Part shown: in pieces, positions 3,696-29,897 of the stretch
Layout of the letters: every line of letters starts with the position of its first letter
Position numbering within the stretch: the stretch's first letter is position 1
Assembly (NCBI GenBank): GCA_002796135.1
Contig: PCWB01000042.1
Location: 1-41,295, forward strand
Direction: 5' to 3'
Origin: Candidatus Omnitrophica bacterium CG11_big_fil_rev_8_21_14_0_20_41_12
GTDB taxonomy: Bacteria; Omnitrophota; Gorgyraeia; Gygaellales; Profunditerraquicolaceae
Length of the DNA stretch: 41,295 nt
Program-made: the position numbers and the translations under genes
The notes under the pieces: model-generated
Seen by the model: only the letters and a program-made list of their open reading frames with translations
Databases searched by the model: none
What the model was told of the DNA's origin: nothing

Positions 3696-3766
3696 AGCGG
3701 GAGAGGGGAATCGAACCCCCATATATAGCTTGGAAGGCTATTGTTCTACCACTGAACTACTCCCGC
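3696..3766 (-). tRNA. tRNA-Gly (anticodon UCC)
   Basis: Reverse complement GCGGGAG...ATAGC CTTCCAA GCTAT...TTCGATT...CTCCCGC; canonical cloverleaf. Confidence 0.95.
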
Positions 3767-3863: not shown

Positions 3864-4145
3864 TGGGCAGGAGAGGATTCGAACCTCTGAAGCACAGGTG
3901 CAGCAGATTTCAAGGGCCTCCGAGTTACCTCGAAGCTTGGACTATCTCATCACCATAGTTTTCACTTTAGGTGGTAGGCGCTTAGTCTCTGCACCTTCCC
4001 GCAAAAATCATTTAGCGGGCTTGGCTCAGGATTCCCCTAAGGGCTACTTAGGGCTCCCCTGAATTCACCTACTTTTCCATCTCGCCTTTCGACAAGACGC
4101 TGCGTTTACACAGTCTGCCCCCTTTGGCCACTTGGGTACCTGCCC
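3864..4145 (-). tRNA. tRNA-Tyr (anticodon GUA), interrupted by a group I intron; exons 4145..4110 and 3910..3864
   Basis: Joined exons give a class II tRNA: GGGCAGG acceptor / CCTGCCC-A, anticodon arm GCAGA CTGTAAA TCTGC, long variable arm GCAC-CT-GTGC, T-loop TTCGAAT. Confidence 0.94.
3911..4109 (-). ncRNA. Group I self-splicing intron (IC3-like, ~199 nt, no internal ORF) in the tRNA-Tyr anticodon
   Basis: Minus strand contains P-like AATTCAGGGGAGCCC, Q-like AATCCTGAGCCAAGCC, R-like GGTGCAGAGACTA, S-like GATGAGATAGTCC; 5' exon ends in U, which can form U.G with an internal guide (CUGU/GCAG); intron ends in G; P9-like CTTCGAG-GTAA-CTCGGAG hairpin. Confidence 0.95.
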
Positions 4146-4200: not shown

Positions 4201-4272
4201 AGCTGGCGAAAGGAATCGAACCTTCAACCCATGGTTTACAAAACCATTGCGCTACCATTGCGCCACGCCAGC
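4201..4272 (-). tRNA. tRNA-Thr (anticodon UGU)
   Basis: Reverse complement GCTGGCG...ATGGT TTTGTAA ACCAT...TTCGATT...CGCCAGC; canonical cloverleaf. Confidence 0.95.
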
Positions 4273-4276
4273 AGAT

Positions 4277-4693
4277 TTACTTCTCAAGTAAGTCAAATCT
4301 TGATTCATATTTGGCTGCTTCAGTTACAAACTTGATTTGTTTATTCTTAGCTGGCTTTAACCGTAAATTACATGTACTTTTATTCCTAATCAGGCTGAAA
4401 GGAACAAAATATACCTTATGCTGCTCGGAAGAATATACAGCAATAATATCTATATTTTTCGGTGAGTAATGTATGATACTGTGATTATTGCAGCTTCTTG
4501 CTCTCACCTCTACTATGCCATCTTTCGGCGTTGCATATTTAACTTGAACACGCTTAAATACTCCATTTTTCTCTGTAACAAGATCGTATCGGTTATCTTC
4601 TCCCCACGGGATAAGAACATTAAAACCATTTTGTTTAAGTAGATAAGTAACAAATGCTTCAGCAATATCACCTTTTTGTTTTGTAATAGCCAT
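4277..4693 (-). CDS. Free-standing PD-(D/E)XK endonuclease, group I intron-associated homing endonuclease type (I-Ssp6803I-like)
   Basis: KGDIAEAFVTYLLKQNGFNVLIPWGEDNRYDLVTEKNGVFKRVQVKYATP shows E...RYDLV...QVK spacing typical of PD-(D/E)XK nucleases with Q-x-K; located next to the intron-bearing tRNA cluster. Confidence 0.78.
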   Translation of the reverse strand: MAITKQKGDIAEAFVTYLLKQNGFNVLIPWGEDNRYDLVTEKNGVFKRVQVKYATPKDGIVEVRARSCNNHSIIHYSPKNIDIIAVYSSEQHKVYFVPFSLIRNKSTCNLRLKPAKNKQIKFVTEAAKYESRFDLLEK

Positions 4694-12517: not shown

Positions 12518-12913
12518 TTATTTAAACAGTCTATGCACAAAAAGCACATATCCGACGGCAAGCGCATTAATTGAGGCAAGCAACACGGCTGCGGCGGAAA
12601 TATCCTTGATTATTTTTATCTTGACGCTGTACTCCTGCTTAAACATATCCATCATTATCTCGATTGCCGTATTCAAAATCTCCGCCATAAACACAAAGGT
12701 CATCGTAATAGATAGTGCAATAACCTCAATTCCCCTTAATTTGAAATATATCCCTAGAAAAAACGCTAAAATCCCCAGTAAAAAAATTATCCGCATATTG
12801 CGATGGAATACAAAAAGGTAGCCGATGCCCAGGGCGGCGATCTTAAGGCTCTCATTAAAAGGCCGTAATTTAAAAATATTCCTGAAAACTTTGTCTTTAA
12901 GCCAACGGATCAT
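12518..12913 (-). CDS. dgkA: Diacylglycerol/undecaprenol kinase family protein
   Basis: Small multi-TM protein with FVFMAEILNTAIEIMMDMF...KIIKDISAAAVLLASINALAVGYV. Confidence 0.92.
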   Translation of the reverse strand: MIRWLKDKVFRNIFKLRPFNESLKIAALGIGYLFVFHRNMRIIFLLGILAFFLGIYFKLRGIEVIALSITMTFVFMAEILNTAIEIMMDMFKQEYSVKIKIIKDISAAAVLLASINALAVGYVLFVHRLFK

Positions 12914-13698
12914 TTCTTGCGATAAGCCTCCAGATATGAATCGCAGAAAATATTTTTATTCAAGATCAGCTCAGCGGTAATCAGCGTATCCATTAATGCC
13001 TTGTCTTTAGAATTAAGTATGGCTGAATCCAAGCCGTTTGCAACTGCCATTGTCAAAAATGTACGGTTAATTAAACTGCGCACAGAAGAACCTTGAGAAA
13101 TATTACTTAAACCGATAATAGTTTTCGGGCTTGGTTGGGATATAGATTTAAATTCGAAAATGGCGCTTAAAATATCCTTCATCTGTGCCTGGGCCACATT
13201 AATCGGTAAAACTATCGGATCCAGATAAAGATCCTCAACGGGAAATTTATTTTGTTGGCAATAGGCAACAATTGTTGCCGCTAATTCTACGCGCTGATCA
13301 ATATTTTGCGGGATACCCTTTGCGTTAATAGCGATTCCGATTAGTTTAGATTTATATTGCTTTGCCAGCGCGACCAAAATATCTAATTTTTCCGGATCAG
13401 CTGTCGTAGAGTTGATAATAGTTTTATTCTGGGAAGCTTTTAGGCCCTCTTCAATTACTTTGGGATTACTAGAATCCAGGCAGAGCGGCTTTTCCGTTAC
13501 CTCCTGGACAGTCTCAACCAGCCAGGCCATATCAACCAATGGTTTAGGTGAAGCCGGGCCGCAGTTTAAATCAAGTGCATCTGCACCACAGCTAACCTGA
13601 TCAAGCGCATATTTTTGGATTATTTTTTTATCACGCTGGCTAATGGCCGAAGCAATTTTTAATGACATGCCATTAATACATTCGCCAATAATAAACAT
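12910..13698 (-). CDS. acsE: Methyltetrahydrofolate:corrinoid/iron-sulfur protein methyltransferase
   Basis: Pterin-binding fold: CGADALDLNCGPASPKP, PLCLDSSNPKVIEEGL, TIIGLSNISQGSS; adjacent to acsD. Confidence 0.9.
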   Translation of the reverse strand: MFIIGECINGMSLKIASAISQRDKKIIQKYALDQVSCGADALDLNCGPASPKPLVDMAWLVETVQEVTEKPLCLDSSNPKVIEEGLKASQNKTIINSTTADPEKLDILVALAKQYKSKLIGIAINAKGIPQNIDQRVELAATIVAYCQQNKFPVEDLYLDPIVLPINVAQAQMKDILSAIFEFKSISQPSPKTIIGLSNISQGSSVRSLINRTFLTMAVANGLDSAILNSKDKALMDTLITAELILNKNIFCDSYLEAYRKK

Positions 13699-13700
13699 GC

Positions 13701-14636
13701 CTATCCTCGGAATAAAGTTTCAATAAAATTACTTACCTTCTCAATTGCTTTAGGGTGGCGCATCACTAAAAGATCCGCTCCCGATTGAATAAAGCTTGAA
13801 GCGGTGATAGTTTCCCACATAATTCCCTGCTCAATGCTGCCTTTTGCTTCTTTGGCCCTCCATGCCTCTTGTCCCACGAAGCAGATAAACGGTGAAGCTA
13901 GAGTTTTATCTCCGGATAAAGCCGCAAGCCTGGCCCTTTCCATAATCGAGTAGGCATATTCAAGCCCATAACCCAATGCACCGATTGTTGGGTCCATAAC
14001 AATGCGCTCAAGAGGCAAACCCATATCAGAAATTAATATATTAAGCTGTTTGGCAATATTAATATCTATGGGGCTTTCGGCAATAATGCTGTGGCCGTCG
14101 GCCAATACGCTGGCAACAATGGTTTTATAATTATCTTGTACGGCGCTGCCAATTATACAACGTTCGTTCTTAGCTGCCTCTGACACTAAAGGCATAACTA
14201 AATTATCTTTAGTATTATCCCCGCTTCCGGTAATAATTAAAGGGACTTTGACTTTATCTAATAGCGTAGAAATAAATTTAGCTGAATCTTCAGGCGAACG
14301 ATCGCCAAAATCAGGATGTGCACCCTGCATCCTAACGTAAAGTATCTCAGCTTTAAATTCATTGACGCATTTTTGCGCCCAGCCAAGAGGATCATTTATC
14401 TCTTCTCCATAAGCAGATAAAAGTTCATTGTGCCAATCTTGCGGAACAATATCCCAGACCTCAAAAGCAACCCTCGGCTTATTGGGAATTGCCCCTTCTT
14501 TAAATAATAAAGGCAGGCTACTTTGCCCGCCGATAGTAACTATATTACTGCGGGATCCGCTTTCCTCTTTTTTTGCTCCGATAACTACAGTTGAGATCAC
14601 ACCCGGCCATTTATCAAGCACTAATTGCGTTTCCAT
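13701..14636 (-). CDS. acsD: CODH/ACS delta subunit (corrinoid iron-sulfur protein small subunit)
   Basis: RVAFEVWDIVPQDWHNELLSAYGEEINDPLGWAQKC, PLIITGSGDNTKDNLVMPLVSEAA, MDPTIGALGYGLEYAYSIMERARLAAL. Confidence 0.92.
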   Translation of the reverse strand: METQLVLDKWPGVISTVVIGAKKEESGSRSNIVTIGGQSSLPLLFKEGAIPNKPRVAFEVWDIVPQDWHNELLSAYGEEINDPLGWAQKCVNEFKAEILYVRMQGAHPDFGDRSPEDSAKFISTLLDKVKVPLIITGSGDNTKDNLVMPLVSEAAKNERCIIGSAVQDNYKTIVASVLADGHSIIAESPIDINIAKQLNILISDMGLPLERIVMDPTIGALGYGLEYAYSIMERARLAALSGDKTLASPFICFVGQEAWRAKEAKGSIEQGIMWETITASSFIQSGADLLVMRHPKAIEKVSNFIETLFRG

Positions 14637-15373
14637 ATTTTATCTCCTAATAAATTAAGCGCTAAAAATAACTGCGCATTTGAATCTAATTTAAAAATCG
14701 AGCTGCCTGCTGAACTTAGCGCTTCAATCTGCGGGTCAGCCGGTAAATGACCCAGATAATCTAAACCCGTTTCTTTAATTTTTTGATTATCGATATTTTT
14801 ATTAAGTCGATTGACTAAAAGTAGGCTCTTTTTTACTTCGAATTTTAAATCTTTTGCCAGAGCGATAATCCTGCTGGCTGATTTTAAGCCAACGCTAGAA
14901 GCATCCGAGACAACGATAAGCCTGTCTGCAGAACGGGTAGTCCGGCGCGATAGATGCTCTAAACCGGCTTCATTATCAATTATAATATAATCATAATCTT
15001 TAATCAATTTAATCATTACCCCCCGCAAAACATTATTTACGTAGCAATAACAACCCGGGCCCTCGGGTTTGCCCATGGTTAATATATCAAAGCCTTCCTC
15101 TTCCTGAATAGCCGACTGTACTTGATGCTGAATAAAGCGTTCTTTGGGCATGCCGGCCGGAACCTTATCAGAATTAGAGCAAATATCATCAAGGATTTCG
15201 CCAATGTTACCTGCCGGCTCTACCCCGAGCACTTCAGCTAAATTACTGTTTGGGTCCGCGTCAACGGCTAAAATAGACCCCAATTTCTTCTCTTTAATCA
15301 ACCGGATAATTAAAGCGGCAAGCGTAGTCTTTCCCGTGCCCCCTTTTCCGGCCATCGCAATGATATAACCCAT
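14621..15373 (-). CDS. cooC: CooC/AcsF-type nickel-insertion ATPase
   Basis: AMAGKGGTGKTTLAALI deviant Walker A, LAVDADPNSNLAEVLG, GKPEGPGCYCYVNNVLR. Confidence 0.92.
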   Translation of the reverse strand: MGYIIAMAGKGGTGKTTLAALIIRLIKEKKLGSILAVDADPNSNLAEVLGVEPAGNIGEILDDICSNSDKVPAGMPKERFIQHQVQSAIQEEEGFDILTMGKPEGPGCYCYVNNVLRGVMIKLIKDYDYIIIDNEAGLEHLSRRTTRSADRLIVVSDASSVGLKSASRIIALAKDLKFEVKKSLLLVNRLNKNIDNQKIKETGLDYLGHLPADPQIEALSSAGSSIFKLDSNAQLFLALNLLGDKIWKRN

Positions 15374-17011
15374 TTAAAATTTCACCGTTGGAAATTTCGT
15401 CAAATCCGTATGCGGAAAAAATAAAGCCTGGCTATATTCCTCCATATATCCGGATTCAACCGATAATTCAAAATAAGTAATTTTAGAGACAAGGACGCCC
15501 GCCATCTCCGTTGCTTCTTTAGATAAGAGTATCTGGCTGGCTCCGGCCAAAGAACTGTTACCGATAAAAATAAATTTAGTTCGATCAAGATCCGGTAATA
15601 ACCCTATCCTGATTGCTTTTTCAATATCCAGATATGTGCCGAACCCTCCAGCAATATAAAATTTATCAACTTCTGAAAACTCTAATCCTAGGTGTTTTAC
15701 TAAAATCGAAGTTGCTGAATAGATTGCGCCTTTAGAGCGTTTAAGATTCTCAATGTCGGCTTCGTTAATTACAATATCTGCCCCTGCTGCAGTCTCTTCT
15801 TTAAAACAAACTATAAATTCTTTTCCGGTATCTGTTTTGCGTATTCGCTTACCTTCTGCTTTGATTCTGCCGTTTTTATCAATGATCCCGGCATCCAACA
15901 TCTCACTTAAAAGATCAATATAACCTGATCCGCAGATACCCCGCGGTTTTTTATTCTGAATTACAGAGTATTTAACTCTAAAATCTTTTTTGTCGATACG
16001 TATGTTCTGGATTGCTCCGTTAGAGGCGCGCATCCCGCTCGTTACGCCACTGCCTTCAAAAGCCGGCCCGGCAGATGCAGCACAGGCAACTAAAAATTCC
16101 TTATTGCCCAAAACAATCTCTCCGTTTGTCCCAATATCGATTAATATACAAAGCTTTTCATTTTGATATAATCCGCTAGACAAGATTCCGGCGGTAGCAT
16201 CTCCTCCGACATAGCCGGATACTCCCGGAACACAACTCAATAATCCTTTAGGTTTAATATTAATATCTGCTTTGACTGCAGGCAAAATTAGGGGAAAGTT
16301 TGCTTTTGATACATACGGCATCCGGCGGATATGCGCGGGATCCGTATTCAAAAGTAAGTGGATCATCGTTGTGTTCCCCGCACAAACAATACTATTAATA
16401 TTATTAAGAGCAACCTTATGTTCCGTTGCTAAATCGCTGATAATTTGGTTTATTGTACCAGAAATAGAGTCGTGTAATTGTTGCAGGCCACTAGGCTTAG
16501 CCGCATAAACAATACGCGTAATGACATCGCTGCCAAAAGCAGCCTGTTGATTATAAGTAGCTTTTGTGCCTAAGATTTTCTTTGAATCTAAATCAATCAG
16601 CTGGCCTGAAACCGTGGTTGTGCCAATATCAAAACAAACGCCGAAATTTTTTCCTGTTGCTTCGGCAGTCTCAATTGCCAGGCCGCTTAAACGCTCCTCT
16701 AATTCTTCAGGTGTAAGCTTGTCAAAATTAAGGCGTGAACTATCCGAGATTTTTACCTCTAAATCCCCTTGCACATGCGTAAGGCAAGCCAAGTATACGT
16801 TATTTTTACGCTCCTCAGGCGTAATCATTCCATTTGGCTGGCTACTTACCTGTCCTTTAACAATGACCTTACATTTTCCGCAAATTCCGTCGCCGCCGCA
16901 GGCAGCATTAATGTAAATTTGGGCCGATAGCGCCGCTCGAAGAATAGTGGCATCCTTCTCAACGGAAACAGTTATATTATCCGGCAAGAATGTAACTTTG
17001 AATTTGAGCAT
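15374..17011 (-). CDS. acsV: RACo-type corrinoid reductive activator (2Fe-2S ferredoxin + DUF4445/ASKHA)
   Basis: NAACGGDGICGKCKVIVKG ferredoxin motif; GVCFDIGTTTVSGQLIDL; CILIDIGTNGEIVLGN; FYIAGGFGTYLDIEKAIRIGLLPD. Confidence 0.92.
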   Translation of the reverse strand: MLKFKVTFLPDNITVSVEKDATILRAALSAQIYINAACGGDGICGKCKVIVKGQVSSQPNGMITPEERKNNVYLACLTHVQGDLEVKISDSSRLNFDKLTPEELEERLSGLAIETAEATGKNFGVCFDIGTTTVSGQLIDLDSKKILGTKATYNQQAAFGSDVITRIVYAAKPSGLQQLHDSISGTINQIISDLATEHKVALNNINSIVCAGNTTMIHLLLNTDPAHIRRMPYVSKANFPLILPAVKADINIKPKGLLSCVPGVSGYVGGDATAGILSSGLYQNEKLCILIDIGTNGEIVLGNKEFLVACAASAGPAFEGSGVTSGMRASNGAIQNIRIDKKDFRVKYSVIQNKKPRGICGSGYIDLLSEMLDAGIIDKNGRIKAEGKRIRKTDTGKEFIVCFKEETAAGADIVINEADIENLKRSKGAIYSATSILVKHLGLEFSEVDKFYIAGGFGTYLDIEKAIRIGLLPDLDRTKFIFIGNSSLAGASQILLSKEATEMAGVLVSKITYFELSVESGYMEEYSQALFFPHTDLTKFPTVKF

Positions 17012-17013
17012 AT

Positions 17014-18345
17014 TTAGTTAAGATTTTTTAAAAATGCAGGGATTCCCGCAGCCTCTTTAGGCCCGACGATTATCTCAAATCCTGATTGTTCTGCCAAATC
17101 GCCGCTGATTACCGCAACATATCCGGGAATAATTAAATTTTTATGGTTTATTGTATTTTTCACGCCATGTTCATCCAGCGATTTAGTAATACATTCAGCG
17201 TTAAATTTCTCCGCAGCCCAGGCAGTCAATACCGACATGCCTTGTGTATCTACGCTCAGGATATAGGAAGGAACTTTGCTGGCCTCAACTTCTCCTAAAA
17301 CAGTGAAATAGCTTAAAGAAAAGTTGGTTGTGATTAAAACCGGAGAGCTTTGATTAACTGATCCTATTGGATAAAGTTTGGATTCAATTTGCAAAGGCTT
17401 TTGAGGATCGGTATAAATATTCTGCCTCAAAGTCAAAATGGAAAGGATTTCCCAGGCTTGAATCCCTTTGATTAAAACAACCGCTGAATATTTAGCAATA
17501 TAAGCAGCTGCCTCCATTGCTTCTTCGTAAGGATCTTCTTTGTCTACGATCGTCAAACACGGATATCCCAATGCCCGGTTTAATTTTCTTAGCGCCTGCC
17601 TGCGTGATTGCGTTAGGTCCCAGATCTTTTCGGTTGCAGATTTAATTCCCGTATCCAAGATTAAATTGCTCACTCCAATGCTACTAAGCTCTTTAGTTAG
17701 TTTAGTCAAACTATCAAAGTCTTCCGCCTTAACAACCAATGGCAGTTGAAATTCTTTAGCAATAGCGCCAATCTGCGTAAAGTTATCCTTAGTCGCACAA
17801 TATAACAGCGGCTTACGTTCCTTGGCGATTTCTGCTGCCTGCTTTAAAGCGTCTAAATCATCGCTCATTAGTATTACCGGCAAGACCGTGCTATTTAAAA
17901 CTAACTTTACTGCTTCCAGATACCTTTTGGCATCTTTATTCTGTTTCAACGACACCAAGTTAACTTCAAGCAATTGTCCAACACGCTCAAATTTTAACTC
18001 ATTAATTTTATCAAGCCTTTCCTTTATCTGCGAATCGCTTAAGGAATCATCGATAATAAAACCGATTCCAGTGGGATTTCGAAACTTTTCTTCATGCCTG
18101 AACATTACCGTTTCATTACCAATTTCAAACTTTAAATTTTCATTGCCTAAAACAACCGGTTTAATCGGCGGCAAAGCTTGAGTTTCTAAAATCATCTTAG
18201 ATTCTGCAGAGATAAAAGGGCACTTTTCAATTGCCACTGCTTTTTTGGCCAGCTGCATGGCAAAAGCAAGGCAAGTAGCCAAGCCGCACTCACGACAATT
18301 TGTTTTTGGTAATAATTTATAGATATCTAATCCGGATAAAGCCAT
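17014..18345 (-). CDS. acsC: CODH/ACS gamma subunit (corrinoid iron-sulfur protein large subunit)
   Basis: LSGLDIYKLLPKTNCRECGLATCLAFAMQLA 4Fe-4S motif; VMFRHEEKFRNPTGIGFIIDD; IPGYVAVISGDLAEQSGFEIIVGPKEAAGIPAFLK. Confidence 0.94.
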   Translation of the reverse strand: MALSGLDIYKLLPKTNCRECGLATCLAFAMQLAKKAVAIEKCPFISAESKMILETQALPPIKPVVLGNENLKFEIGNETVMFRHEEKFRNPTGIGFIIDDSLSDSQIKERLDKINELKFERVGQLLEVNLVSLKQNKDAKRYLEAVKLVLNSTVLPVILMSDDLDALKQAAEIAKERKPLLYCATKDNFTQIGAIAKEFQLPLVVKAEDFDSLTKLTKELSSIGVSNLILDTGIKSATEKIWDLTQSRRQALRKLNRALGYPCLTIVDKEDPYEEAMEAAAYIAKYSAVVLIKGIQAWEILSILTLRQNIYTDPQKPLQIESKLYPIGSVNQSSPVLITTNFSLSYFTVLGEVEASKVPSYILSVDTQGMSVLTAWAAEKFNAECITKSLDEHGVKNTINHKNLIIPGYVAVISGDLAEQSGFEIIVGPKEAAGIPAFLKNLN

Positions 18346-26687: not shown

Positions 26688-29600
26688 ATGAAAACTAAAA
26701 GAAAACAAGTTAAAGCGAAATATTATTTGAATAAACTTGGCGAATTTGTTATAGAAAACTATAACTACTCCAAGCCTTTCGCTAATTTTTTCCCGGGGAT
26801 TGCCGGAAAATACGGCATTCCGATGTGGGTCTTCTACGTCAACCGCGGACAATGCATCGCCAGCTTCGGAATCAAAGATAAAGACCACTCAATCCTGGAA
26901 TTTTTTCCTGCAAATAAATCCTGGCAATTTGTATCCAGCCATGGCTTCCGCACTTTCATAAAAATAAACTCCGCAAAAGAACCTGTTTATTACGAACCTT
27001 TTCATAACGGCTTCGCCAATTTAAAATACGAAATACGCAATTCTATGCGCATGACTTCCGGCAGGCTTATCTTAGAAGAAGAAAACCGCACCCTCGGGCT
27101 TAAAACTTGCGTGGAATATTTTAATATTCCTAATGCTACTTATGCCGGATTAAGCCGCACAGTAAGCATTGAAAATACCTCAAATAAACCCAAATCCCTA
27201 GAGCTCATTGACGGGCTGCCTCAGATTATTCCTTTTGGTACAAATAATTTCTTTTTAAAAAAGATGAACCGGACTATTGAAGCCTGGATGAAAATTGACA
27301 ACCTGGATAAAAATGTCCCCTTTTACAGGCTTGCCGTCGACCCCCCTGATCGGCCGGAAGTCGTGCATATCGAAGAGGGAAATTTCTATCTGGGTTTTCA
27401 TTTTATCGGCACTAAAGCAAAACTTGTTCCTCCGATTGTAGATCCGCAAGCAGTTTTCGGAGAAGTAACTGATTTTTCCTACCCGGCAAATTTCTTAGCC
27501 GGCCCTAAGTTTGCTTACCCTGCCAAGCAAGCGACCAAAAGCAAAACTCCCAGCGCCTTGCTTTTATTGAGCTTAAGCCTGAAACCAAAAGAACAGAAAA
27601 AATTTTATGCGGTAATCGGCCAAGCCCATAATACAAAAACCCTTAACAGCTGCGTCAGTAAAATTACAAAATTTGGCTATATCGAGAATAAATTGGCTCA
27701 GAATGACCAGCTGCTCATGAAATTAAAGAATAATATCTTGACTCAAAGCAACAGCCCAGAATTTAATTTATATGCCGGCCAGACTTATCTGGATAATATT
27801 ATGCGCGGCGGTTACCCTGAAATTTTCAAATCAGGCGTAATTTTCTACCTCTATTCGCGTAAGCATGGCGACCTGGAAAGAGATTATAATAATTTTCAGC
27901 TACAGCCGACCTATTTCTCTCAAGGTAACGGCAACTACCGTGATATCAACCAAAACCGCCGCAACGACCTTTGGTTTAACCCGGAAATCGGGACAGAGAA
28001 CATTATCTTTTTCATGAATTTGATTCAAACCGATGGCTTTAATCCTTTAGTAGTAAAAGGCGAAAGCTTCTTGATCAATGACGGAATTAATTTGGATGAT
28101 CTTTTTATAAATACAGTTGAGAGCAACAGCATCGACAAATTAAAACATTTCTTTAAAAAAACTTTCACTCCGGGAGAGCTCATTCTTTTTATCGAAAGCA
28201 ATAACCTGAAACTTCAAAGTTCCTACGATAATCTTCTGGAAATTATTCTTTCCTCTGCGCATAAAATACAGGAAGCTGAACACGCCGAAGGTTTCTGGAC
28301 TGACCATTGGACCTATAACCTGGATCTCATCGACAGCTATCTTGGAATTTACCCGGAGAAATTTAATGAGCTTTTCTTTAACCAAAAGGTCTTCTCTTTT
28401 TATGACAACTCAGAGGTTGTCAGGCCGCGCAACGAAAAATACGTTCTTTATAACAAAGAGCCTCGTCAATTACATTCTCTTACTCTTGATTCCGCCAAGA
28501 AAGAGATGCTGCGCAAACGCCTTAGCAATCCTCACCTTTTAAGGACGCAGCATGGAAACGGTGAGATTTATTATACCACCCTTATTTCCAAGCTGTTGTG
28601 CTTGGCAGCCAATAAGCTTGCTTCACTTGATGCCTTTGGCGTGGGGATTGAGATGGAGGCTAATAAACCTAACTGGTTTGATTCGCTAAACGGACTTCCT
28701 GCCCTTTTTGGATCAAGCAGCTGTGAAACTTTTGAGTTAAAACGCCTGTTAAGATTAATCAAGAGAGTACTTGAAAGCGCGCAGGTTAATGAGATTGAAC
28801 TTGCCGAAGAAATTGCTGATTTTATTGAAAAACTTACGGAGCTGTTTTCAGAAGATGCATTCAGCTTCTGGGATAAAAGTAATACTATAAAAGAAGATTA
28901 CCGCCAAAGAGTCCGCTTGGGATTTTCCGGTAACCCGGTTAATTTACCAGTAGCTAAGCTTATTAACTTTGTAGATGCAGCTTTAGAGAAAATCGAAACA
29001 GGTTTAAATAAAGCCTTGGATAAAAAATCAGGTATTTATAATTCGTATTTTATTAATGAAGTAGTCGAATATGATCTGGTTAAAGATCACTATATAAAAC
29101 CTAAAAAATTTGTGCAAAAGCCAACGCCATTTTTCCTTGAAGGACAAATGCATGCCTTAAGACTTTGCTCAGACAATAATCAACTCTTAGCCCTCCATAA
29201 AGCAACTAAGCAAAGCGAGCTTTTTGATAAAAAACTAAAGATGTATAAAGTAACGGCTAACCTTGACTCCATGCCTGAAGAAATTGGCAGATGCCGGGTA
29301 TTTGCTCCGGGCTGGCTGGAAAATGAATCCATCTGGCTACATATGGAATATAAGTACATCCTCGAAATGCTTAAAGCCGGTTTAACCGATGAGTTTTACG
29401 CTGAATTTAAAAATGTTCTGGTCCCTTTTCAAAATCCCCAGAGATATGGCCGAAGCATATTAGAAAACTCTTCTTTTATCGTCAGCAGCGCTTTTGAGGA
29501 CAAAGAATTGCAGGGTAATGGTTTTGTTGCCCGCTTAAGCGGTTCCACCGCAGAGTTTATCCACATTTGGCTCCTGATGAATATCGGAGCCTGCCCCTTT

Positions 29601-29897
29601 TCACTGAATAAAAGCGGCGAGCTTAATCTAACCCTTAAACCGTCATTACCCGGGTGGCTGTTTCCCAAAAACGGTAGATATTCTTTTAATTTCTTAAGCC
29701 AGATTATGATAACCTATCATAATCCAAAACGAAAGAATACCTTTGGTGATTCGACGAAAAATTCGGTGAGTATCAAAAAGATCGTTCTTTTGGATAATAA
29801 TTCACCCGTAGAAATAAATTCCTCAGTGATACCATCCCCCTACGCACAAGCAATCAGGTCGCGTAAAATCAAAAAAATCGATATTTATTTAGAATAA
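26688..29897 (+). CDS. Large cellobiose phosphorylase-like glycoside phosphorylase/hydrolase family protein (substrate unknown)
   Basis: FFPGIAGKYGIPMWVFYVNRGQCIASFGIKDKDHSILEFFPANKSWQ..GFRTFIKI and FWTDHWTYNLDLIDSYLGIYPE resemble proteins annotated as cellobiose phosphorylase-like (GH94/GH161-type architecture); from memory only. Confidence 0.6.
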   Translation: MKTKRKQVKAKYYLNKLGEFVIENYNYSKPFANFFPGIAGKYGIPMWVFYVNRGQCIASFGIKDKDHSILEFFPANKSWQFVSSHGFRTFIKINSAKEPVYYEPFHNGFANLKYEIRNSMRMTSGRLILEEENRTLGLKTCVEYFNIPNATYAGLSRTVSIENTSNKPKSLELIDGLPQIIPFGTNNFFLKKMNRTIEAWMKIDNLDKNVPFYRLAVDPPDRPEVVHIEEGNFYLGFHFIGTKAKLVPPIVDPQAVFGEVTDFSYPANFLAGPKFAYPAKQATKSKTPSALLLLSLSLKPKEQKKFYAVIGQAHNTKTLNSCVSKITKFGYIENKLAQNDQLLMKLKNNILTQSNSPEFNLYAGQTYLDNIMRGGYPEIFKSGVIFYLYSRKHGDLERDYNNFQLQPTYFSQGNGNYRDINQNRRNDLWFNPEIGTENIIFFMNLIQTDGFNPLVVKGESFLINDGINLDDLFINTVESNSIDKLKHFFKKTFTPGELILFIESNNLKLQSSYDNLLEIILSSAHKIQEAEHAEGFWTDHWTYNLDLIDSYLGIYPEKFNELFFNQKVFSFYDNSEVVRPRNEKYVLYNKEPRQLHSLTLDSAKKEMLRKRLSNPHLLRTQHGNGEIYYTTLISKLLCLAANKLASLDAFGVGIEMEANKPNWFDSLNGLPALFGSSSCETFELKRLLRLIKRVLESAQVNEIELAEEIADFIEKLTELFSEDAFSFWDKSNTIKEDYRQRVRLGFSGNPVNLPVAKLINFVDAALEKIETGLNKALDKKSGIYNSYFINEVVEYDLVKDHYIKPKKFVQKPTPFFLEGQMHALRLCSDNNQLLALHKATKQSELFDKKLKMYKVTANLDSMPEEIGRCRVFAPGWLENESIWLHMEYKYILEMLKAGLTDEFYAEFKNVLVPFQNPQRYGRSILENSSFIVSSAFEDKELQGNGFVARLSGSTAEFIHIWLLMNIGACPFSLNKSGELNLTLKPSLPGWLFPKNGRYSFNFLSQIMITYHNPKRKNTFGDSTKNSVSIKKIVLLDNNSPVEINSSVIPSPYAQAIRSRKIKKIDIYLE

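Follow-up and report, generated by a model that had tools for sequence, protein, structure and literature searches.

A group I intron within the anticodon of the tRNA-Tyr(GUA) gene in Omnitrophota

A class II tRNA-Tyr(GUA) gene interrupted after U35 by a group I intron of 199 nt was found on the minus strand, at positions 3864-4145, of the window (the whole stretch of DNA analysed in this study, i.e. 41,295 nt of contig PCWB01000042.1 from a Candidatus Omnitrophica genome). We consider it very probable (approximately 95%) that this is an ORF-less, IC3-like group I ribozyme intron, which splices from the only tRNA-Tyr detected in the genome and belongs to a sporadic, mobile lineage of Omnitrophota. 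It is a genuine group I intron, and for its host tRNA and position, i.e. for a group I intron in a bacterial tRNA-Tyr, no report was found in the open literature (with most subscription papers and all preprints outside the search).

As hosts of well-supported bacterial tRNA group I introns, the literature consulted names Leu, Ile, Arg and fMet, for the most part from Cyanobacteria and Proteobacteria (PMC8450103, PMC5733544, PMC3984707, PMC4090602, PMC4033280). One of these papers also names Gly and Lys as hosts; the inserts in question, at only 22-49 nt, are below the size of a group I intron. A survey of rRNA insertions in the CPR does not mention tRNA (PMC11270868), and in Archaea the group I introns reported are confined to rRNA genes (PMC6125680). 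The first-pass annotation of this DNA had called tRNA-Tyr a less familiar location, and indeed it is not among the bacterial hosts named in the literature. With the genes described here, tRNA-Tyr joins the few bacterial tRNAs known as group I intron hosts, with a new intra-anticodon position, in two candidate phyla.

Anatomy of the split gene and fold of the intron

ARAGORN run with introns allowed reported at this locus a tRNA-Tyr(gta) with a 199-nt intron, and the same program without the intron option did not call the split tRNA-Tyr gene. Annotation performed in the latter way misses such genes, so that the genomes carrying them look devoid of tRNA-Tyr. Two congeneric genomes (L226 and L232) have an uninterrupted tRNA-Tyr with which the spliced 83-mer agrees at 83/83 positions, and because of this base-for-base match the junction is fixed between U35 and A36. 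After removal of the intron, the exons give a cloverleaf with a long variable arm and a GUA anticodon (ARAGORN on the intact locus and comparison with intronless orthologues). The predicted exon-exon junction in the spliced tRNA-Tyr reads ...CAGACTGTAAATCTG..., and the string spanning it is GGCAGACTGTAAATCTGC, the unspliced counterpart of which is CAGACTGTGTAAACG. A group I intron between U35 and A36, with exon and intron coordinates and anatomy as given in Table 1, is what the first-pass annotation had described, and its description was borne out by Rfam, ARAGORN and the exon identity.

Table 1 Features of the split tRNA-Tyr locus and its surroundings (window positions).
Feature	Position	Strand	Basis
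Free-standing PD-(D/E)XK endonuclease gene (PF11645; product of 138 aa), upstream of tRNA-Thr at a distance of 4 nt	4277-4693	-	Pfam E 1.8e-29; PDB 2ost E 4.4e-7
tRNA-Thr(UGU), intronless, upstream, conserved Thr-Tyr-Gly cluster	4201-4272	-	ARAGORN, Rfam
tRNA-Tyr(GUA) 5' exon, 36 nt, ending ...CUGU (G34 U35)	4110-4145	-	ARAGORN, comparison with intronless relatives
Group I intron, 199 nt, ORF-less, terminal G at 3911	3911-4109	-	Rfam, ARAGORN, covariation
Internal guide GCAG for exon CUGU (forms P1; U.G pair at the splice site)	4100-4103	-	Invariant in 26 homologues
P2 hairpin, GAAA loop	4080-4097	-	Two-sided changes in 7/7 pairs
P4/P5 5' strand motif AATTCAGGGGAGCCC	4051-4065	-	Rfam, covariation
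P5 hairpin	4035-4053	-	Covariation
P5/P4 3' strand and P6 motif AATCCTGAGCCAAGCC	4018-4033	-	Rfam, covariation
P6a hairpin	3998-4019	-	Two-sided changes in 4/5 pairs
P6 3' / P7 5' motif GGTGCAGAGACTA	3983-3995	-	Rfam
P8 hairpin	3951-3973	-	Covariation
P7 3' motif GATGAGATAGTCC	3939-3951	-	Rfam, covariation
P9 hairpin, GUAA loop	3918-3935	-	Two-sided changes in 6/7 pairs
tRNA-Tyr 3' exon, from A36 and A37 through the variable and T arms to the acceptor and discriminator A; no encoded CCA	3864-3910	-	ARAGORN, comparison with relatives
tRNA-Gly(UCC), intronless, downstream	3696-3766	-	ARAGORN, Rfam

The Infernal search of the locus with the Rfam Intron_gpI model (RF00028), which had been proposed in the same annotation, yielded a minus-strand match of 94.9 bits (E 2.3e-23 over the whole window; the gathering score of the family is 50); no other group I match was found in the window or in the whole genome. 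All four core motifs recognised in the first reading are present, and so are the P1 pairing of CUGU with GCAG, the capped P2 and P9 hairpins and the terminal G (Table 1). The conservation of the fold was assessed in 26 aligned Omnitrophota homologues with a P1-P9 model drawn by hand from the window sequence. In this alignment 97.5% of the cells were paired and two-sided changes occurred at 28 pairs, values matched by 0 of 500 shuffles, and sliding the partners by 1-3 columns reduced pairing to 33-48%. The covariation is concentrated mostly in P2, P5, P6a, P8 and P9, with P1, P4 and P7 almost invariant, as expected for the catalytic core. Folded alone, the strand gave an MFE z-score of -4.46. 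In 34 of the 35 Tyr introns extracted, the 5' exon ends with CUGU and the terminal G of the intron is followed by AAA, and the GCAG guide was likewise found in 34/35; the exception (L089) is a tRNA-Tyr with an intron of the Patescibacteria type (L274/L288), in which the 5' splice site had been misplaced during extraction.

We infer that the intron catalyses its own excision with GTP and Mg2+ and that it is mobile. If it behaves like the group I introns characterised so far, folding of the pre-tRNA would bring exon CUGU and the guide GCAG together as P1, a bound guanosine would attack after U35, and the freed U35 would then attack after the terminal G of the intron, with ligation of the exons to give a normal tRNA-Tyr(GUA). 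A convincing P10 was not found in the intron by eye, and the second splicing step would therefore depend on P9.0 together with the terminal G. The 199 nt contain no endonuclease ORF.

Copy number and distribution of the two alleles

The first-pass annotation had considered that an intact second tRNA-Tyr might exist, with the split copy left unexpressed. Among the 40 tRNA matches in the genome, a 57-contig draft of 1.22 Mb that is 95.8% complete, no second tRNA-Tyr was detected; in this genome taken by itself, an intact copy might lie in the portion absent from the draft. Since the split gene appears to be the sole copy, splicing would be needed for the cell to read UAU and UAC. Several other tRNAs, i.e. 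Asn(GUU), Arg(UCU), Ala(UGC) and Ile(GAU), were also missing from these 40, and a pattern search of the genome for the 3' half of tRNA-Asn gave no match; these absences may reflect gaps in the assembly or additional split genes.

Split and intact alleles of tRNA-Tyr are both present in the genus of the window genome. Among 58 relatives, the gene is split in 13, intact in 34 and present in both forms in none. In the 336 Omnitrophota genomes sampled, at least 23 carry the split gene, at least 203 only the intact one and 0 both, the numbers being lower bounds because the allele patterns were exact-match ones and miss, e.g., L034, L036 and L346. A pattern scan of the whole collection returned mostly tRNA-Ser false positives, and the resulting list of split genes for the phylum is also to be read as "at least". 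The comparison of intron-plus and intron-minus relatives, suggested at the outset, thus revealed two mutually exclusive alleles, and the intron is not an isolated case but belongs to a lineage that is widespread but sporadic across the class.

These data bear on two alternatives to a functional intron. It is very improbable that the insertion is degenerate and non-splicing, residing in a dead tRNA-Tyr copy, as the affected gene is the only tRNA-Tyr detected, its exons do not deviate from those of the uninterrupted relatives and the catalytic core of the intron is intact. An assembly chimera or contamination might be suspected in a draft, metagenome-type assembly, but the Thr-Tyr-Gly neighbourhood is conserved (in intron-minus loci, tRNA-Thr lies directly upstream of tRNA-Tyr in 61/70 and tRNA-Gly downstream in 44/70), the same NAD(P)H-hydrate dehydratase gene is also located upstream in many relatives, and the same intron occurs in many independent genomes, by which this explanation is practically refuted.

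Relatives of the intron and its possible routes of spread

In its motifs and capped P2 and P9 the window intron appears IC3-like, similar to the cyanobacterial tRNA-Leu(UAA) introns sampled. The latter are also compact and ORF-less, lie in the anticodon, carry near-identical motifs (TCAGGGAAACC..., GCAATCCTGAGCCAAGCC and GGAAGGTGCAGAG) and, like the window intron, have a U before the 5' splice site and a terminal G. They differ in splitting the anticodon after U34. The Azoarcus tRNA-Ile(CAU) intron and other IC3 introns of proteobacterial pre-tRNAs are, like the window intron, about 200 nt long with GNRA-capped P2 and P9, and differ from it in host tRNA and position.

Core comparisons (L036 and L061, taken from the wrong strand, and L032 and L043 being left out of all identity figures) gave a mean identity of 0.81 between the window intron and the other Omnitrophota Tyr introns, 0.70 and 0.67 to its nearest sampled relatives outside tRNA-Tyr, which are tRNA-Asn(GUU) introns of Patescibacteria (L262) and Omnitrophota (L268), and 0.55-0.57 to the cyanobacterial tRNA-Leu introns. 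The Asn introns of both phyla follow the same exon end, CUGU, after U35, in a different host tRNA, and some of them carry HNH-type ORFs. Because they are closer to the window intron than the cyanobacterial Leu introns are, a hop, in either direction, between tRNAs sharing a CUGU 5' exon seems more likely than a transfer out of tRNA-Leu. The initial view of the intron needs to be amended accordingly in two respects: the layout and motifs are of the Leu type, as had been proposed, but the closest relatives outside tRNA-Tyr are Asn introns; and lateral spread to a new anticodon site, which the tRNA-Tyr host had been taken to imply, would more probably have occurred between CUGU-sharing tRNAs than from tRNA-Leu, and splitting of an anticodon is not unique.

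Introns at the same position of tRNA-Tyr were also found in Patescibacteria, among them Yanofskybacteria, Moraniibacteriota and Peregrinibacteria. Their cores are approximately 0.49 identical to that of the window intron and cluster with tRNA-Asp and tRNA-Asn introns of Patescibacteria. Since these cores represent a different lineage, the comparison indicates a minimum of two colonisations of the tRNA-Tyr site, with the introns of Omnitrophota and Patescibacteria unrelated to each other. In one Yanofskybacteria genome (G360), the introns of Tyr(GUA) (L274) and Asp(GUC) (L281) share 84% core identity, while its Tyr intron shares 65-71% with the Tyr introns of other genomes, which suggests a recent hop between tRNAs with the CUGU junction.

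Group I introns were detected elsewhere in the class, in LSU rRNA genes (L048, L067, L076 and similar) and in several other tRNAs, whose isotypes were assigned partly by eye: Asn (L045, L049, L059, L063, L064, L073-L075, L268, L270, L271 and L276), Lys (L042, L046 and L061), fMet (L047, L050-L053, L062, L065, L068-L071 and L269) and Arg (L057, L066, L072 and L159). ORFs overlapping these introns are of the HNH type in several Asn introns and of the PD-(D/E)XK type in fMet introns.

The genomic surroundings of tRNA genes in Omnitrophota include a family of HTH/LAGLIDADG-like ORFs (L338-L387), which encode proteins of about 200-250 aa that combine an HTH at the N terminus with a LAGLIDADG-like portion. 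In many relatives such a gene abuts or overlaps the 5' end of tRNA-Tyr, and in 28 members the stop codon lies inside a tRNA. The structure model (pLDDT 81) gave no Foldseek match below E 0.001, several of the weak matches being LAGLIDADG or intein proteins, and the Pfam search returned no family beyond HTH; a firm LAGLIDADG assignment was therefore withheld. The association of endonuclease genes with the intron was initially seen as 22/38 intron-plus versus 0/30 intron-minus loci, in which the 30 controls were close relatives, and 40 phylum-wide controls were subsequently added. An exclusive tie of the HTH/LAGLIDADG-like genes to the Tyr intron was rejected when a protein search revealed four members beside an intronless tRNA-Tyr; their association is strong, not exclusive. 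The split tRNA-Tyr of the window has no such gene, and the family member of this genome (G000:C24:38072-38317) is located on another contig, near tRNA-Ala/Leu. The family fits a putative mobile endonuclease directed at tRNA genes, which in spreading could take along an intron located 36 nt away, and these genes may help the intron to spread.

An intron lineage of this kind would move between intronless and intron-bearing alleles, and among tRNAs in which CUGU precedes the insertion site. Two routes of movement were weighed. It is quite possible, if short of probable, that the spread is RNA-borne, i.e. that the excised intron reverse-splices into tRNAs with a CUGU junction (Tyr, Asn and Asp) and is then converted into DNA again. 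The CUGU exon end and GCAG guide common to the introns of these three tRNAs, the similarity of the Tyr and Asp introns within one Patescibacteria genome and the position of Asn introns as closest non-Tyr relatives all argue for this route, but within one site endonuclease homing or gene conversion could yield the same pattern. We put forward more tentatively a collaborative homing, or hitch-hiking, in which the putative endonuclease encoded 5' of the tRNA would cleave in or close to tRNA-Tyr, and its gene would be copied together with the intron during repair, the window copy having lost, or never had, the gene. This is consistent with the presence of the gene at 12/29 intron-plus and 0/68 intron-minus Omnitrophota tRNA-Tyr loci (first sample, loci with at least 900 bp upstream), with a p value of 7e-8 computed on loci that are phylogenetically non-independent. 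It is also consistent with decayed C-terminal remnants at two more intron-plus loci, with family members beside Patescibacteria tRNA-Tyr genes that contain the unrelated intron (upstream in L104, L122 and L292, downstream in L164), and with the finding that 37 of the 46 members end no more than 100 nt from a same-strand tRNA, directly 5' of it, for many isotypes. Against it stand the weak fold matches and lack of a Pfam family beyond HTH, the intronless tRNA-Tyr beside four more distant members (L347-L350), the intronless tRNAs of other isotypes beside most members, and the lack of the gene at approximately 60% of intron-plus loci, including that of the window.

Collaborative homing of introns with free-standing endonucleases has been described for phages (PMC3984707); the present, putative case differs in concerning bacterial chromosomes and tRNA genes. 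A general scheme, according to which putative HTH/LAGLIDADG-like endonucleases encoded 5' of tRNAs drive ORF-less group I introns into these tRNAs from outside in both Omnitrophota and Patescibacteria, with two unrelated lineages having used the same Tyr site, would amount to collaborative homing on bacterial chromosomal tRNA genes, and seems to us rather unlikely at present. The occurrence of both alleles in one genus, along with the tRNA-linked endonuclease-like genes, makes the movement of tRNA introns directly testable.

Other genes in the window

The PD-(D/E)XK gene upstream of tRNA-Thr was considered as a part of the Tyr intron system and dropped, as it occurs with or without the intron (6/29 intron-plus and 5/68 intron-minus Tyr loci, p 0.08). 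Its product belongs to the same family as I-Ssp6803I (which we take to be the protein of PDB 2ost) from the tRNA-fMet intron of Synechocystis, but the window gene is free-standing and not intron-internal like the latter. The same placement, with the gene end only a few nt ahead of tRNA-Thr(UGU), was also observed for genes of this type at L298, L302, L310, L311 and L335.

Further along the window, the plus strand encodes (26688-29897) a protein of 1069 aa with no Pfam family and a partial, below-cut-off NCBIfam match to GH149 beta-1,3-glucan phosphorylase. On the minus strand, an acetyl-CoA synthase/corrinoid protein cluster (CdhD-like, gamma subunit and AcsV-like), constituting a Wood-Ljungdahl module, is located at 12910-18345.
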